A stretch of 64,000 nucleotides of DNA, taken from positions 62,001 to 126,000 of the forward strand of contig JAUSFN010000017.1 in the NCBI GenBank assembly GCA_030649935.1, written 5' to 3'. The notes below the pieces were generated by a model that saw nothing but the letters and a program-made list of their open reading frames with translations, was not told the origin of the DNA and made no database searches. Source of the DNA: Candidatus Planktophila sp. (lineage in GTDB: Bacteria > Actinomycetota > Actinomycetes > Nanopelagicales > Nanopelagicaceae). The position numbers were made by a program, and so were the translations under genes. Positions 31,062 through 42,982 of the stretch are shown here, piece after piece (position 1 is the stretch's first letter; every line of letters starts with the position of its first letter).

Positions 31062-32279
31062 ATGAGTACACCATGGGGATACCGCCCCCGTAATGAGCGC
31101 GAAACACCAGAATGGGATCTGCATCCCCAAACACATGCCGTGCGTACAGGACTTACCCGGTCAGGCTTTGGTGAAACATCAGAGGCGCTTTATCTAAATA
31201 GTGGATTCACTTATTCAACTGCCGAAGAGGCCTTTGACTCTTTTGCTGAAGAGACAGACCACTTTTTATATAGCCGCTTTCATAATCCGACGGTTGCCAT
31301 GTTTGAAGCGCGCTTGGCGGCAATTGAAGGGGCAGATTTCTGCGTAGCTACAGGTTCTGGAATGTCGGCAATGTTTTCATCTCTTGCCTGCCTTGTTGAA
31401 CAAGGTGACCATGTCGTTGCATCCGCGGCAATGTTTTCTTCATGCCATGTCGTTATAACAGAGTTCTTACCAAAGTGGGGCATAACTTTCGAATTAGTAA
31501 AGGGTAATGATCCAACTGTATGGGCAAAGGCGCTAAGCAAGCCAACTAAAGCTGTCTTTATTGAAACGCCAAGCAATCCTTTAATGGAGATAGTTGATAT
31601 CGCGATGGTGAGCGAGTTAGCCCATCACGTAGGAGCAACGGTTATAGTCGATAACGTCATGGCTTCACCTGTATTACAAAAACCACTACAGCTTGGTGCT
31701 GATGTGGTTATGTACTCTGCAACTAAGCATATTGACGGACAAGGCCGTGTTCTTGCCGGTGCAATTCTTGGCTCCTCTTCTTACATTCACGAAAAGTTAA
31801 TGCCTTTTACCCGACATAGTGGTCCATCATTGAGTCCATTTAACGCATGGGTTCTCGTTAAATCTCTGGAAACAATGGAGATGCGAGTTGAGCGAATGGT
31901 GGCAAATGCCCAATCAATCGCCGAATTCTTAGAAGCGCGTCCCGAAATCAAATCAGTACGTTTTCCTGGTCTGAAGTCGCACCCAGACTACGAGTTAGCA
32001 ATGAAACAGATGACAGGTGGCGGGACCACAGTTGGTATTGAGTTTGTTGAAGATCAAGCGCAGGTGTTTGCCTTCATGAATAAACTTCGAATCATCGATA
32101 TCTCTAATAACTTGGGTGATAGTAAATCACTTATTACGCATCCGGCAACATCCACACATCGACGTTTAGCTCCAGAAGTCCAAGTTGAAATGGGTATCAC
32201 GCCATCAGTTTTGCGATTGTCGGTAGGTTTGGAGCATTCAAGTGATTTGATAAAAGATTTAACTCAAGCACTGAGTTGA
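31062..32279 (+). CDS. metZ: O-succinylhomoserine sulfhydrylase
   Basis: A pyridoxal-phosphate enzyme of the Cys/Met metabolism family, 405 residues from the ATG at 31062. It makes homocysteine from O-succinylhomoserine and sulfide. The PLP lysine is Lys222 in YSATKHIDGQGRVLAG, a sequence form typical of MetZ; YSRFHNPT, ATGSGMSAM and ETPSNPLMEI are also visible. An upstream in-frame start at 31026 exists but would lie inside the divergent ABC gene. No Shine-Dalgarno is present; CACAAT six bases before the ATG is an imperfect leaderless -10. It overlaps ctaB by 16 bp. Confidence 0.93.
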   Translation: MSTPWGYRPRNERETPEWDLHPQTHAVRTGLTRSGFGETSEALYLNSGFTYSTAEEAFDSFAEETDHFLYSRFHNPTVAMFEARLAAIEGADFCVATGSGMSAMFSSLACLVEQGDHVVASAAMFSSCHVVITEFLPKWGITFELVKGNDPTVWAKALSKPTKAVFIETPSNPLMEIVDIAMVSELAHHVGATVIVDNVMASPVLQKPLQLGADVVMYSATKHIDGQGRVLAGAILGSSSYIHEKLMPFTRHSGPSLSPFNAWVLVKSLETMEMRVERMVANAQSIAEFLEARPEIKSVRFPGLKSHPDYELAMKQMTGGGTTVGIEFVEDQAQVFAFMNKLRIIDISNNLGDSKSLITHPATSTHRRLAPEVQVEMGITPSVLRLSVGLEHSSDLIKDLTQALS

Positions 32280-33133
32280 GCAACGACAAGAACAACTGAG
32301 AGTAAACTCAAATAAGTGATTGACCACTGAAAAATCTTTCCCGCAGTTTTTCCATAATCCGGAGAGCTTTCTTTAAGGGCTATTAATTCGCGTGCGAATA
32401 CCACGCCAAGCAAAATGGTTACCACTAGAGACCAAGTTGGCAAATTTGCGGAAATAATTAGCCAAATTGATGAGGCAATCATCAAAACCGTATGGAACCA
32501 CATTTGGCGATAAACATTTGCCTTAGTAGTAACAACTGGAAGCATTGGAATTCCTGCTGCCGAATAGTCATCTTTGTACTTAATTGCTAGCGCCCAAAAA
32601 TGCGGTGGAGTCCAAAAAAAGATCACCATAAAGAAAGCAAGAGCAGTGATTGAAAGTGAGTTTGTTACTGCTGCCCAACCTATAAATACGGGCATACAAC
32701 CAGCTACGCCACCCCAGACAATATTCTGTGATGTCCTGCTTTTTAGACCAATCGTGTAAACAAGGACATAAAATGCAATTGCAAAAAATGATAAGAGGGT
32801 CGCAAGAGGTGTTGTAAAAATCCAAAAAATGATGAGCGATAAAATACCAATAATGAATGCAAAGATCGCAGCATTGGTTCTGCTGATTACCCCAGTAACA
32901 ATCGGGCGTTTTGCGGTTCTAGCCATTAACTTATCGCTCTCGCTTTCAATCACCATATTAAAAGCGTTAGCACTGCCGGCAGATAAAGTGCCTGCGAGAA
33001 TAGTTGTGGCCACCAGTGAAAAAGAAGGTAACCCTTTAGCCGCCAAAATCATGGCGGGTAGAGTGGAAACCAATAGGAGCTCGACGACTCGAAGTTTCAT
33101 TAGTTCTATGTATCCACGCACAAGGCTCATCAC
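32264..33133 (-). CDS. ctaB: Protoheme IX farnesyltransferase (heme O synthase)
   Basis: CtaB adds a farnesyl group to heme B to give heme O for cytochrome oxidase. The 289-residue membrane protein has about eight to nine spans, the first prenyl-diphosphate motif around Asn59-Glu63-Asp67 (NMVIESESDKLMARTAKRP) and the second YKDDYSAAGIPMLP. In other CtaB proteins the residue at 63 is Asp; here it is Glu. It starts with GTG, six bases after TAATCT (33140-33145, minus strand), so it is probably leaderless; an ATG follows as codon two. Confidence 0.94.
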   Translation of the reverse strand: MMSLVRGYIELMKLRVVELLLVSTLPAMILAAKGLPSFSLVATTILAGTLSAGSANAFNMVIESESDKLMARTAKRPIVTGVISRTNAAIFAFIIGILSLIIFWIFTTPLATLLSFFAIAFYVLVYTIGLKSRTSQNIVWGGVAGCMPVFIGWAAVTNSLSITALAFFMVIFFWTPPHFWALAIKYKDDYSAAGIPMLPVVTTKANVYRQMWFHTVLMIASSIWLIISANLPTWSLVVTILLGVVFARELIALKESSPDYGKTAGKIFQWSITYLSLLSVVLVVAQLSA

Positions 33134-33139
33134 CTGCCT

Positions 33140-33145
33140 AGATTA
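33140..33145 (-). promoter_or_regulatory. Leaderless -10 element of ctaB
   Basis: TAATCT on the minus strand ends six bases before the GTG start at 33133; no ribosome site is visible. Confidence 0.55.
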
Positions 33146-33222
33146 CTCAGCAAACTAGGGCTCACTTCACAGGGGCTTCACAAGGTACAAGGCTACTTTC
33201 TCCTCAACGAAAGGAGCTTCAC

Positions 33223-33648
33223 ATGACACCTTCACAGAAGCCCGAATGGATCGAAACAGCCAAGAAGAAGACCTCCTCTTTCCCACGCTCTATTTCCAGA
33301 GGTCTGCCAGTAATCGCTCTTGTGGTGAGTACATCAATTCTTGGTGTTGGCGCGATCTTTGCCGATAGCGCTGAAGAGAGCCCAGTAAAGGCAGTTGAAT
33401 TTTCAGCTCCGGTAGAATTTGATCCATCGGCAACATCAACGGCAGCTTCGATTGAGATTCCATTAATTGATACATCGCTTACCTTCAGTGAAGAAGATGA
33501 TGAAGTTCTCGGATATGAAGACGATCTCGAAGTTCTCGGATATGAAGACGATCTCGAAGATCTCGATGAAGACGAGGGCGACGACGAAGATGAAGACGAT
33601 GAGAGCGATGAAGATGAGGGCGACGAAGATGAGGGCGACGACGACTAA
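33223..33648 (+). CDS. Membrane protein with a highly acidic repetitive tail
   Basis: I do not recognise this 141-residue protein. It has a basic cytoplasmic start (KKKTSSFPRSISR), one membrane span (about 28-46, LPVIALVVSTSILGVGAIFA, possibly an uncleaved signal), a linker, two copies of EVLGYEDDL and then some 35 residues that are nearly all Asp or Glu. The tail should lie outside the membrane and could bind calcium or other cations. AAAGGAG is six bases before ATG, the strongest ribosome site nearby. Direct TTCACA repeats precede it. A five-bp hairpin at 33643-33655 overlaps the stop and may end the message. Confidence 0.8.
   Translation: MTPSQKPEWIETAKKKTSSFPRSISRGLPVIALVVSTSILGVGAIFADSAEESPVKAVEFSAPVEFDPSATSTAASIEIPLIDTSLTFSEEDDEVLGYEDDLEVLGYEDDLEDLDEDEGDDEDEDDESDEDEGDEDEGDDD
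33502..33555 (+). repeat. Two tandem 27-bp coding repeats
   Basis: The units 33502-33528 and 33529-33555 are identical and encode EVLGYEDDL twice. A third, degenerate start follows, running into imperfect GAAGAC/GATGAG repeats. Identity at third codon positions points to recent duplication, so copy number may vary between strains. Confidence 0.9.
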
Positions 33649-33670: not shown

Positions 33671-34864
33671 TTAAGGCGTAGGTTCAACCTCAGAGATTTC
33701 AGTTGGAATATTTGGAGCCGCAATTCTTCCGAGGATTCGATCTATGGCAGCACGCGCCTTATCGCTTGCTCGAACGCCTCGTTGGATGTCATCAGCTAAA
33801 GTTACAAAAATATATTCACGATCAACTGATTCTACAAAACCTGCCAAGGTTACCGTTCCATTGAGAGTTCCAGTCTTAGCGCGGACTAAACCAACTGCAG
33901 TAGGTGCTGTTGTTAAAAATCTGGATTCCAAGGTACCGGAAATACCACCAACTGGAAGAAAATCGTAAATATATTTAAACTTCTCATCCTGGCGGAGTTT
34001 AAAAAGTAGTTGACCTACCATTGACGCTGTTATTCGATTCTCTTTAGATAACCCACTTGCGTCGATAACCTTCAATTTTGTGGGATCTATTTCTAAATCT
34101 GTGAGCACTTGAGCAAAAGTTTGAGCTACTCCTTCAATGTTAAATGTATACCCGGCAGCGCGAGAGGCGAGCCTAGCTAAACGTTCGGCCAAGAGATTAT
34201 CACTCCATAGAAGTGTGAATTCCAAAATCTCATAGAGCTTTGGTGATTCTTCACTTGCGGTAATTTCGCCCGCTTCAGCTAAAATTTCGGCGCTACTTAC
34301 CGCTCTCATCACTGGTTTGAAACCTCGTTGGGCCCAAAAACTCTTAAAATTTGAAACATCCTGTGAAAACAATTTCGAATATATGACCGTAATTTCCTCA
34401 AGAGAACCTCCATTGGCCTTCTTGAGCATAGCCATGGATCTATTTGCAAGGCTAGGCAGGGACGCGCGATTCATTTTACGAGCAGCGATGTAACTGGTAC
34501 TAATCCAAGGGTCGTAGCTTCCTTGAATCACTAGAGTTCGACTGTCTACTCCTATTGAGATATTAGTTGAAAAAGTCGACTCTGGATCTAAATACTTCAG
34601 TGTTGCAACTCCTGAAAGCAATTTCATAACGGAGGCAGGCTTGCGTTGTGAATATGCTTTTCTCTGATAAACAATCTCTCCGGTAATTCCGTCAATGAGA
34701 ATCATCGCTGGATTGGATAGAGCAGGGACTGCTAAGAGTTTGTCAAAAACAGCAGGTATTGCCGAAGGTGATAAAGCTGCATTGCTTGGAACAACATTTA
34801 GTGCGATAACCAGTGCAAGTAATATAAAAATTACTTTGTGTCGCATTGCATAGGTCTTTACCAT
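33671..34864 (-). CDS. dacB: D-alanyl-D-alanine carboxypeptidase/endopeptidase (PBP4 class)
   Basis: An S13-family penicillin-binding protein trimming wall peptides outside the membrane. It has a signal peptide (MRHKVIFILLALVIALNVVP, cut near SNA), the active-site S-x-x-K in KPASVMKL, the DASGLSKENRIT segment that carries the SxN-like motif, and K-T-G in RAKTGTLNG. I take the ATG at 34864 (397 residues), which overlaps the stop of the gene upstream; the ATG at 34846, directly before the signal peptide, is equally possible. Together with the NlpC/P60 enzyme it gives this region a cell-wall turnover theme. Confidence 0.9.
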   Translation of the reverse strand: MVKTYAMRHKVIFILLALVIALNVVPSNAALSPSAIPAVFDKLLAVPALSNPAMILIDGITGEIVYQRKAYSQRKPASVMKLLSGVATLKYLDPESTFSTNISIGVDSRTLVIQGSYDPWISTSYIAARKMNRASLPSLANRSMAMLKKANGGSLEEITVIYSKLFSQDVSNFKSFWAQRGFKPVMRAVSSAEILAEAGEITASEESPKLYEILEFTLLWSDNLLAERLARLASRAAGYTFNIEGVAQTFAQVLTDLEIDPTKLKVIDASGLSKENRITASMVGQLLFKLRQDEKFKYIYDFLPVGGISGTLESRFLTTAPTAVGLVRAKTGTLNGTVTLAGFVESVDREYIFVTLADDIQRGVRASDKARAAIDRILGRIAAPNIPTEISEVEPTP

Positions 34865-35205
34865 AGAGATGCAATGAGAATGTTTGCTACCGTTAATCCA
34901 ATTAGTGCTAGCCATGTGTTCTTTGCAAGTACGGGTTTCTTTACATTGCAATAACCAATAAATAGAATTGCAATCAGAATAAGAAGCTTAACTCCTATTT
35001 TTGTGTAATTCAGATTTTCATCTAGGTGAACAGTTGAAAACATTCCCACCATCGCTAAACCGGAAATAAGCGCGGTTAGTCCTGCATGTAAGATCCCCGG
35101 ATTGAGCTTTCGCGGCTCCTTATTCCATTGCTGCAAAAGCAATACAAGTATCACTACAACGCTGAGAACATGCAGGATATAGAGGATTGTATTGATAGTG
35201 GCCAT
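34858..35205 (-). CDS. Small integral membrane protein, function unknown
   Basis: The 115-residue protein has four predicted membrane spans (ILHVLSVVVILVLLL; ALISGLAMVGMFS; IGVKLLILIAILFIGY; WLALIGLTVANILIA) with short loops. I can name no family with confidence, but proteins of this size and shape are common beside wall genes of actinobacteria. It overlaps dacB by 7 bp and so may be co-translated with it. TAAACT six bases before the ATG makes it a leaderless candidate. Confidence 0.75.
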   Translation of the reverse strand: MATINTILYILHVLSVVVILVLLLQQWNKEPRKLNPGILHAGLTALISGLAMVGMFSTVHLDENLNYTKIGVKLLILIAILFIGYCNVKKPVLAKNTWLALIGLTVANILIASLW

Positions 35206-40900: not shown

Positions 40901-42982
40901 ATGTCTCTACAACCACGTACAACCGCGCCCGGAAAAGCACGTCGGGCAGCATCAGTTGGAAAACCTAAACGCACGAAGAAGGCCGCTGAGTTTAAAGCGA
41001 TAGACCCAAAAGCTCGCCACACAACTGCGCAAAAGAATGCGCGCAAAGGCGCAGCTGCTCTGGGTAAATCCGCTGTGGGTAAATCCGCTGTGGCTAAATC
41101 AAGTAAGGCAGCCACTACGCGCCGATATTCAGATTCTGATCCATCAACCATTTCGAAAAAAGAGGTCCGCTTGACTGACCGTTCAAAGCTACGCGCACAG
41201 CGCTTCCAAGAAAAAACAGCTTCTCGTCCACGCCCACTTGAAGCGTCTGAAGAGCGCAAAACCCGTATTGAACTTTCACAAAAGCCCGAAAGTCGCGCAA
41301 AGAAGTTTGTTGCAGAGCGAACTGAGCGTGCTAAGCGTCCATTAGATAAGAAACCAGATTTCAAAAAAACCGAATACAAAAAATCAGATACACGTCCAAC
41401 AAATCGCCGCGATGCAGCACTCGCAAAGGTTTCGCGCACTGTTGATGGCCGCCCTAACTTTATTCCTCGGAAAGTTGAAAAATTTGATCCAACTCGCCCG
41501 AAGAAACGCTCTGAAGCTCCAGATACACGCGCTGCAAACTTTCGCGCAGAGCGTCCAGCTCGTGATCGTCGCAATGAATCACCGGCATATGCCCGGGATG
41601 ATTTCAAGCACTCATCTAAGACGCACACCAATGCCGCAGTCGATTTTGGAGCAGATGATAACTACATTTCGGCAAATTTAGCTGACGCTAATTTAATTGA
41701 TGCAACTCCATTAACTGAGATAACTACAACTTTCAGTGATTTAGGAATCGCAGCACCATTAGTTAATGCACTTGCTAAGCAAGGAATTATTCATCCCTTC
41801 CCGATTCAAATCGCTACTTTGCCTGATGCGTTAGCGGGCTACGACATTTTGGGTCGTGGACAAACTGGTTCTGGTAAAACTCTTGCATTCGGCCTAGCCC
41901 TTCTCAATAATTTAAATGGCCGTGTTGCAAAGCCACATAAGCCACTTGCGCTTGTACTTACACCAACACGCGAACTTGCCCAGCAGATTGATGAAGTCTT
42001 GATGCCGTTAGCGCGCTCAATTGGTCATGAATCAGTTGTTGTCGCTGGAGGAATGTCATATGCCAAACAGATCACCGCAATGCGCCGTGGAACGGCAATT
42101 TTGGTTGCAACTCCTGGCCGTTTGATTGACTTGCTCAACAAGGGTGAGGTTCAACTAGATCAGTTAGAGATAACTGTTCTTGATGAAGCCGATCAAATGG
42201 CCGATATGGGATTCTTACCGGTTGTTAAAGAGATTTTGGACCAAGCAAAGCTCGATGGACAGCGCCTATTGTTCTCGGCAACCCTTGATCGCGGAGTTGA
42301 TTCCTTAGTTCGTCAATACTTGAAGAACCCAAAGACCCATTCACTTCAAAATGATCGTGCCTCTGTTTCAACAATGGATCACTTTGTTCTTGTGATGAAC
42401 CCAGGTGATAAGGATGACATCACTAATCAAATCGCTGCCCGTAATGGTAAGACAATTATGTTTGTTAAGACACAACGTGGCGCTGATCGCTTAGCTGACA
42501 AGCTTGCTCACGCAGGTGTTGCAGTCGGTGCATTGCATGGTGGTAAGACACAAGCAGTACGTACTCGCACACTTGCTCTCTTCAAAGAGTCAGCCAATGC
42601 CGCACTTGTTGCAACCGATGTTGCTGCTCGTGGAATCCATGTTGATGGAATTTCATTAGTCGTTCACGTTGATGCTCCAACTGATCATAAGGATTACTTA
42701 CACCGCGCGGGTCGTACTGCGCGTGCTGGTGAGGCCGGAACAGTTGTAACTATTGCAACGACAAAACAGCAGAAATCAATCGGTGGACTCACTTCTCGCG
42801 CTGGTGTTACCCCGAAGTTCGTTGGGGTAACGCCACTTAGTACTGAGTTAATGAAGATTACAGGTGCACAAGAGCCCTCCGGTATCCCTTATATCGTGCC
42901 AATCGTTGAAAAGTCGGTACGCAGTGGAGGCAATAAGCGTCCACGCCCTAACTCAAGTCAGCGTCGTCGCCGCCCCCACTAA
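40901..42982 (+). CDS. DEAD-box RNA helicase with long basic N-terminal extension
   Basis: The helicase core (from about 260) has the Q motif, GRGQTGSGKTLAF near 320, PTRELA, TPGR, DEAD in VLDEADQMADMG near 427, SAT in LFSATLD, and HRAGRTARAG. About 250 residues before it are very rich in Lys, Arg, Ala and Ser, with repeats such as GKSAVGKSAVAKS and RxxRAKKF-like units; they are probably disordered and bind RNA. The C-terminus is also basic. It likely unwinds structured RNA in ribosome assembly or mRNA decay. I start at ATG 40901; upstream starts are TTG only. Confidence 0.93.
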   Translation: MSLQPRTTAPGKARRAASVGKPKRTKKAAEFKAIDPKARHTTAQKNARKGAAALGKSAVGKSAVAKSSKAATTRRYSDSDPSTISKKEVRLTDRSKLRAQRFQEKTASRPRPLEASEERKTRIELSQKPESRAKKFVAERTERAKRPLDKKPDFKKTEYKKSDTRPTNRRDAALAKVSRTVDGRPNFIPRKVEKFDPTRPKKRSEAPDTRAANFRAERPARDRRNESPAYARDDFKHSSKTHTNAAVDFGADDNYISANLADANLIDATPLTEITTTFSDLGIAAPLVNALAKQGIIHPFPIQIATLPDALAGYDILGRGQTGSGKTLAFGLALLNNLNGRVAKPHKPLALVLTPTRELAQQIDEVLMPLARSIGHESVVVAGGMSYAKQITAMRRGTAILVATPGRLIDLLNKGEVQLDQLEITVLDEADQMADMGFLPVVKEILDQAKLDGQRLLFSATLDRGVDSLVRQYLKNPKTHSLQNDRASVSTMDHFVLVMNPGDKDDITNQIAARNGKTIMFVKTQRGADRLADKLAHAGVAVGALHGGKTQAVRTRTLALFKESANAALVATDVAARGIHVDGISLVVHVDAPTDHKDYLHRAGRTARAGEAGTVVTIATTKQQKSIGGLTSRAGVTPKFVGVTPLSTELMKITGAQEPSGIPYIVPIVEKSVRSGGNKRPRPNSSQRRRRPH

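Follow-up and report, generated by a model that had tools for sequence, protein, structure and literature searches.

A predicted promoter box of PhoP type upstream of an acidic-tail protein gene family in Candidatus Planktophila

Response regulators of the OmpR/PhoB type usually bind direct repeats, and an acidic, disordered C-terminal tail that binds Ca2+ is found in calreticulin. Lakes harbour large numbers of planktonic actinobacteria of the acI group, which have streamlined genomes and are difficult to culture; the targets of their few two-component systems are therefore, to our knowledge, largely open. Two systems described elsewhere come closest to the locus analysed here. MgrB is a 47-aa inner-membrane peptide that is regulated by PhoP and interacts with PhoQ, as described in the accessible part of its report (PMC2789325). 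PhoP of Mycobacterium tuberculosis binds 7-bp direct repeats, TCACAGC-N4-TCACAGC, with a strict 4-bp spacer, according to the accessible part of a second report (PMC4832192).

We analysed a stretch of 64,000 nucleotides from Candidatus Planktophila sp. (the window), in which an earlier note had pointed to an ORF for a membrane-anchored, poly-acidic protein carrying a 27-bp duplication. An acidic protein with a repeat appears ordinary in kind, but the circuit predicted around it does not; what appears to be new here is the direct repeat that precedes both the tail gene and a PhoP-like regulator gene. The earlier note did not mention this box or the proposed connection with such a regulator, nor the family and its conserved motif, which is predicted to be cytoplasmic. 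Judged by title and start of abstract, the open literature yielded neither a description of the KPEW acidic-tail family nor such a circuit for the acI group.

The acidic-tail protein, its family and its repeat

The ORF is a real, intact gene, and it encodes a protein with the single hydrophobic segment that the earlier note had assigned to it: an ATG start, the ribosome-binding site AAAGGAG and a hydrophobic stretch at residues 28-47 were all found (Table 1). The protein begins with 27 mostly polar residues that include KPEW, followed by the 20-residue hydrophobic segment, a short linker and the acidic tail. The 19-residue hydropathy maximum lies at residues 28-46 (mean 2.28), and the AlphaFold2 model (mean pLDDT 57) has two helices, at residues 8-12 and at residues 28-47, and is otherwise without a fold. 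A spacer role would fit the linker, which is disordered in the model. The calculated pI of the 141-aa protein is 4.05 and its net charge is -40; the extreme acidity noted earlier is thus real, but 'almost wholly' Asp/Glu overstates it, since the final 56 residues hold 21 Asp and 16 Glu (37/56, 66%) and the density rises only towards the C-terminal end. The window protein has no Pfam family and no credible NCBIfam match, and no metal-binding domain was recognised in it. A sortase-type C-terminus (LPXTG, hydrophobic stretch, basic end) is also absent, the protein being acidic through its last residue and having no C-terminal hydrophobic stretch.

Table 1. Coordinates of the gene, its upstream elements, its parts and its neighbours in the window
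Feature	Position	Strand	Basis and remarks
UbiA-type prenyltransferase, presumably ctaB; divergent neighbour	32264..33133	-	Pfam UbiA, E 8.6e-58
Direct repeat TTCACAG-N4-TTCACAA, predicted OmpR/PhoP-type regulator box	33166..33183	+	11/12 consensus bases
Predicted -10 element TACTTT	33194..33199	+	Conserved TA..TT columns in 78 box-bearing upstream stretches
Ribosome-binding site AAAGGAG	33210..33216	+	Sequence; 7-13 bp upstream of ATG; similar in many relatives
Acidic-tail protein gene	33223..33648	+	141 aa, ATG start, predicted exported; sequence, relatives, profile match
KPEW motif, residues 6-9, predicted cytoplasmic	33238..33249	+	Alignments A1, A2, A4
Hydrophobic segment, residues 28-47, either a signal anchor or the core of a signal peptide	33304..33363	+	Hydropathy; AlphaFold2 helix 28-47
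Acidic tail, residues 86-141	33478..33645	+	37/56 Asp/Glu; no secondary structure in AlphaFold2
27-bp repeat unit, copy 1, encoding EVLGYEDDL	33502..33528	+	TRF, lag comparison
27-bp repeat unit, copy 2, identical to copy 1	33529..33555	+	TRF, lag comparison
Peptidase_S13 D-Ala-D-Ala carboxypeptidase, which we take to be of PBP4 type; convergent neighbour	33671..34951	-	Pfam Peptidase_S13, E 1.4e-44

By its sequence the ORF belongs to a genus-wide family characterised by KPEW[FI], a membrane segment, a Ser/Thr/Pro/Ala linker and a charged tail ending in DD. The first 85 residues of the window protein retrieved relatives across the genus (down to E 3e-16). Profile A2, which covers the first 59 residues in 23 rows, matched the window copy at 1.9e-23, the window sequence being one of those rows. 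With this profile the family was found in 84 of the 135 congeneric genomes at E ≤ about 1e-7 (93 of 135 at E ≤ 0.1), a count that leaves out contig-end scraps and weaker profile matches such as G128 and G112:C31; the gene is therefore no orphan, and absence from all relatives is ruled out. An order-wide search matched 159 of 296 genomes at E ≤ 0.1, many of the matches in other genera being weak; strong ones came from one sister genus (g35), where the loci were read. Among the matches of the first search, the weak ones L002, L003, L028, L029 and L031-L033 proved to be other proteins or frames and were dropped, and L027 runs into a contig end. The set comprises 94 unique family proteins, of which 92 were scored; one of the two left out is cut at a contig end. 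The other is an in-frame fusion of a KPEW N-terminus to a dihydrolipoamide-acyltransferase-like protein (L135:2324-3685, named by eye), probably a chimera created during metagenome assembly where the sequence is rich in Pro/Ala. The locus lies between ctaB and the S13 peptidase in the window and in most relatives with enough contig; a different gene follows in, for example, L086, L090 and L094, and L135 has neither neighbour. A wider comparison, over 32 members, gave solely a marginal low-complexity match, New_glue, in two of them, and comparison of the N-terminal profile with solved structures in the PDB gave no match.

The two halves of the protein differ in how they are conserved. P7 and W9 are invariant in alignments A1 and A2, K6, P7 and W9 in A4, and P7, W9 and G43 across 24 aligned members; a Pro-x-Gly-Gly-like motif precedes the tail in many members of A1, and the window copy does not have it. 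The N-terminal half is, by our estimates, under purifying selection: over codons 1-59, dN/dS between the window copy and its two nearest relatives was 0.09 and 0.17 (rough values, as dS is high) and ranged from 0.09 to 0.23 over all pairs of these three. Among the remaining pairs the ratio was undefined for two and otherwise lay between 0 and 0.62, in some cases resting on a handful of changes. The tail, as far as the alignments tell, is conserved only in kind and otherwise varies freely. Its C-terminal residue is Asp in 88 of the 92 members and its last two are Asp-Asp in 81, and total length ranges from 95 to 213 aa between species, so the 141 aa of the window copy are ordinary. The window copy is extreme in composition, with 38 Asp/Glu in the last 60 residues, the highest of the 92 (median 15), and a net charge of -38 there against a family median of -11; it has no His in this stretch (family median 1). 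In some relatives (e.g. L024, L026) the tail contains Arg and His as well as Glu. These mixed tails, together with the median charge, indicate that strong negative charge is not constant across the family.

On its N-terminal side the hydrophobic segment is flanked by net positive charge in 85 of 92 members, and on its C-terminal side in none (0/92), from which we infer that the tail should lie outside. The earlier description of the protein as membrane-anchored agrees with this in part: the hydrophobic segment and the export prediction stand, and the segment may be an anchor or, equally well, part of a cleaved signal peptide. In 82 of 92 members an A-x-A that would suit signal peptidase lies within reach of the hydrophobic core. 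No A-x-A is present in the window copy, where the core is followed by I-F-A (45-47) and V-K-A (55-57).

The two 27-bp units are identical, as had been noted. The exact match at a lag of 27 extends over 31 bp, whereas shuffling the codons of the C-terminal stretch 2000 times never produced more than 20 bp; TRF gave the tandem a score of 121. EVLGYEDDL could be spelled synonymously in 18,432 ways; base identity of both units despite this argues for a duplication of DNA rather than selection for similar peptides. When unit number was compared among relatives, the matching place in L139 (genome G117), the nearest relative with the same motif, held a single VLEYEDD unit and that in L064 none, so either the window's lineage acquired the duplication or the relatives lost it. 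Its absence from the nearest relatives agrees with the earlier view that it is recent, and an origin on the window's branch would be the simpler of the two histories. Tandem slippage within a codon-poor acidic stretch is the ordinary explanation of such a duplication. The window contains a second tandem array at 41057-41100, with a 15-bp unit, 2.9 copies and 93% matches.

The promoter box and the PhoP-like regulator

Upstream of the tail gene we found a direct repeat whose family consensus is TTCNCAG-N4-TTCNCAG, mostly 38-40 bp upstream of the ATG. Enough upstream DNA was available for 92 of the 94 family loci, a set that includes the upstream stretch of the L135 chimera. With the 4-bp spacer, the box reached at least 10 of 12 consensus bases in 78 of these 92 stretches, compared with 0.8% of shuffles in which base composition, though not dinucleotide content, was preserved; with spacers of 2, 3, 5 or 6 bp only 3-9 of 92 did so. 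Both the family promoter rows and the regulator rows described below are related, and the box counts are therefore not counts of independent events. In the 78 box-bearing stretches, conserved TA..TT columns sit 10-15 bp past the box. A 23-bp near-palindrome at 33137-33159, beside ctaB, was kept solely in the upstream stretches of the closest relatives (by eye) and was dropped as a candidate.

In three genomes the same box precedes a response-regulator gene that is followed by a kinase gene (L195, L197, L198). A scan of 13 genomes gave 17 exact sites, and beyond the tail and propeller promoters only this regulator promoter recurred convincingly. Adding these three loci to the 30 from a genus-wide search gave 33 regulator loci in 32 genomes (L198 and L228 are from the same genome), and the box was present before the regulator gene in all 33, at one fixed distance and with 10 or 11 of 12 bases. 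Autoregulation of the regulator through its own box is thus predicted. The OmpR-type DNA-binding domain was matched seven times in the window's own genome; among these seven, L206 (C35:149432-150142) is the counterpart of the box-bearing regulator, its box scoring 10/12. The closest solved relative of L206 is M. tuberculosis PhoP (295 bits), followed by PrrA (178) and MtrA (156); NCBIfam assigns another of the seven, L205, to MtrA above its cut-off, and among the matches listed for L206 no named family passes that threshold. From these relationships we infer that a PhoP-like protein probably acts at the box. The outside loop of the kinase behind the regulator varies and includes short acidic runs (L206, L211, L212, L195, L197, L198).

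The window's own genome contains seven box sites at up to one mismatch, with about seven expected by chance, so the box defines no large regulon there. One site of 11/12 (L185, C35:247453) lies 78 bp upstream of a gene for a small exported-looking protein resembling an FMN-binding domain, with an ApbE-like gene after it and a ferric-reductase-like gene before it (all read by eye); NCBIfam gave no match for this protein.

We then compared the presence of the two genes. The regulator was detected in 88 of 135 genomes at E ≤ 1e-60. Across all 135, 63 genomes carry both genes, 21 the tail gene only, 25 the regulator only and 26 neither (p 0.003). Among the 44 good genomes (completeness of 90% or more and contamination of 5% or less; G122 and G141, which have the regulator and no tail gene, are included), the corresponding counts are 24, 3, 5 and 12 (Fisher p 1.6e-4). 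Kinship is disregarded in these p-values, as in that for propeller and regulator given below. An rpoB tree of 32 genomes (28 good ones and four that are 81-86% complete) yielded six independent pairs with a difference in tail-gene presence, and the regulator changed in the same direction in 3.2 of them on average and in the opposite direction in 0.0 (median p 0.25); the direction agrees with the co-occurrence, and the power is too low for significance. Two tail-positive genomes in which no regulator was detected, G102 and G014, still have the box, and a different regulator may therefore use it there. C-terminal remnants of the tail gene stand before the propeller gene at L099, L103 and L110 (G015, G096, G136), as signs of repeated decay.

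The neighbouring beta-propeller gene

Downstream of the tail gene, at a distance of 9-71 bp, 54 of 92 family members have a co-oriented gene for a beta-propeller that looks exported. The propeller (e.g. L064:6483-7559) is present in 92 of the 135 genomes of the genus, with a mean column identity of 79% over 20 aligned rows and four Cys in the mature form of every row. Pfam classifies it as Lactonase/YNCE-like, its model has a pLDDT of 87, and the PDB entry that this model matches best is a YVTN propeller of an archaeal surface layer. A search for it in the window's own genome gave no match.

Strong as this gene order looks, we take the propeller to be a neighbour of the tail gene and not its partner, as the independent presence and absence of the two genes does not support a partnership: 58 of the 135 genomes have both, 26 the tail gene only, 34 the propeller only and 17 neither (p 0.85). 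In the 44 good genomes, the counts for propeller and regulator (both, propeller only, regulator only, neither) are 18, 14, 11 and 1, an association in the negative direction (p 0.035). The box goes with the tail gene and not with the propeller, since it reaches at least 10/12 in only 4 of 17 propeller loci that have no intact tail gene, compared with 78 of 92 in the family (p 1e-6, rows related). All 68 scored propellers are basic, with net charges of +5 to +17, and those next to a tail gene are slightly more basic than the others (p 0.005, rows related). Four other exported-looking ORFs of the window that were scored are basic as well (calculated pI 8.6-9.4), so the charge of the propeller is not specific.

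Alternative explanations and known systems

The explanation that we tentatively favour, though we would put it slightly short of an even chance, is that the tail protein is an exported polyanion produced under the control of a PhoP-type two-component system and binding cations at the cell surface. The gene, its family, the conserved N-terminus, the box at both genes and the co-occurrence support it at the level of sequence. The N-terminal 27 residues with KPEW would face the cytoplasm, the hydrophobic segment would span the membrane or lead the protein across it, and the disordered linker and polyanionic tail would lie outside. The protein most likely to act on the promoter box is the PhoP-like response regulator, whose gene lies elsewhere in this genome, and cells in which the two-component system is active would produce the acidic-tail protein. 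The fixed negative charge of the tail may then bind cations at the surface, be they divalent ions, cationic peptides or basic exported proteins, and the polyanion could perhaps buffer cations or feed back on the kinase. Weak constraint on the length and composition of the tail would mean that slippage duplications such as the 27-bp one are tolerated.

An MgrB-like accessory protein, induced by the regulator, touching the kinase through its N-terminus and membrane segment and tuning sensing through its acidic tail (as feedback or co-sensing), would account for the co-occurrence and the common box, for the conservation of the cytoplasmic motif and membrane segment and not of the outside part, and for the short acidic stretches in the outside loop of the kinase; the interaction of MgrB with PhoQ, in the accessible part of PMC2789325, provides a precedent. 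However, three good genomes keep the tail gene with no detected regulator, and the membrane contact on which this reading depends fails if the hydrophobic segment is a cleaved signal peptide, so we consider it unlikely. The same low likelihood applies to a tail that is weakly constrained, low in complexity and adds only solubility or distance to an exported protein of some other function. The variation in length (95-213 aa) and tail composition agrees with such a tail, as do the species in which the gene is missing or decayed and the remnants in G015, G096 and G136; nevertheless, the terminal Asp (88/92) and Asp-Asp (81/92) are kept, and the charged end recurs in very diverged members and in more than one genus.

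The earlier note had also suggested that the tail binds Ca2+ or other metals, and no result supported this. A secreted protein for Ca2+, Zn2+ or Fe would make sense of the dense Asp/Glu of the window copy and of the His in the tails of many relatives, but no Pfam or NCBIfam metal-binding family was matched, the window copy lacks His in its last 60 residues, and composition alone predicts merely weak and unspecific cation binding; we regard it as improbable. Less probable still, at a small chance, is a role of the acidic tail in docking or chaperoning the propeller, which is basic and secreted. The close downstream gene (9-71 bp, 54/92), the basic charge of all 68 propellers and the surface-layer YVTN match speak for it, whereas the lack of association across 135 genomes (p 0.85), the missing propeller match in the window's genome and the unspecific charge speak against it. 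An extended form of the regulated-polyanion explanation makes the protein both the main conserved output of the PhoP-type system and a co-sensor: with a common box and joint gain and loss, the inner part would act on the kinase, the fast-changing tail would set the threshold for cations or peptides, and tail duplications would tune sensing between species. We rate this quite unlikely, between the accessory-protein reading and metal binding.

For the regulated, cation-binding polyanion, the named set of regulator, box and target offers a direct and easily tested entry into two-component control in the acI group. The fast-changing tail beside a conserved inner part would, if true, represent a sensor or surface property tuned by slippage.

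Among described proteins, calreticulin-like acidic Ca2+-binding tails resemble the window protein in having a long, disordered, Asp/Glu-rich C-terminus, but the window protein has no folded domain and the two have no Pfam family in common. The YVTN/YncE-like propeller shares the locus in many relatives and looks exported, yet it is unrelated to the tail protein. We know of no counterpart of the tail gene in the M. tuberculosis PhoP regulon; the box itself, TTCNCAG-N4-TTCNCAG here and TCACAGC-N4-TCACAGC there, is alike, binding here being predicted. MgrB of E. coli, as described in the accessible part of PMC2789325, is likewise small, has one membrane segment and is induced by a regulator named PhoP, induction being predicted here; it differs in length (47 aa against 141 aa) and in its Gram-negative host, and the enteric PhoP/PhoQ is a different system. 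The six base-contacting residues of M. tuberculosis PhoP given in the accessible part of PMC4832192 are partly replaced in the window genome's regulator (N212 by Gly, V213 by Ile and S216 by Thr; alignment read by eye), whereas E215, Y217 and Y220 are identical in L206.
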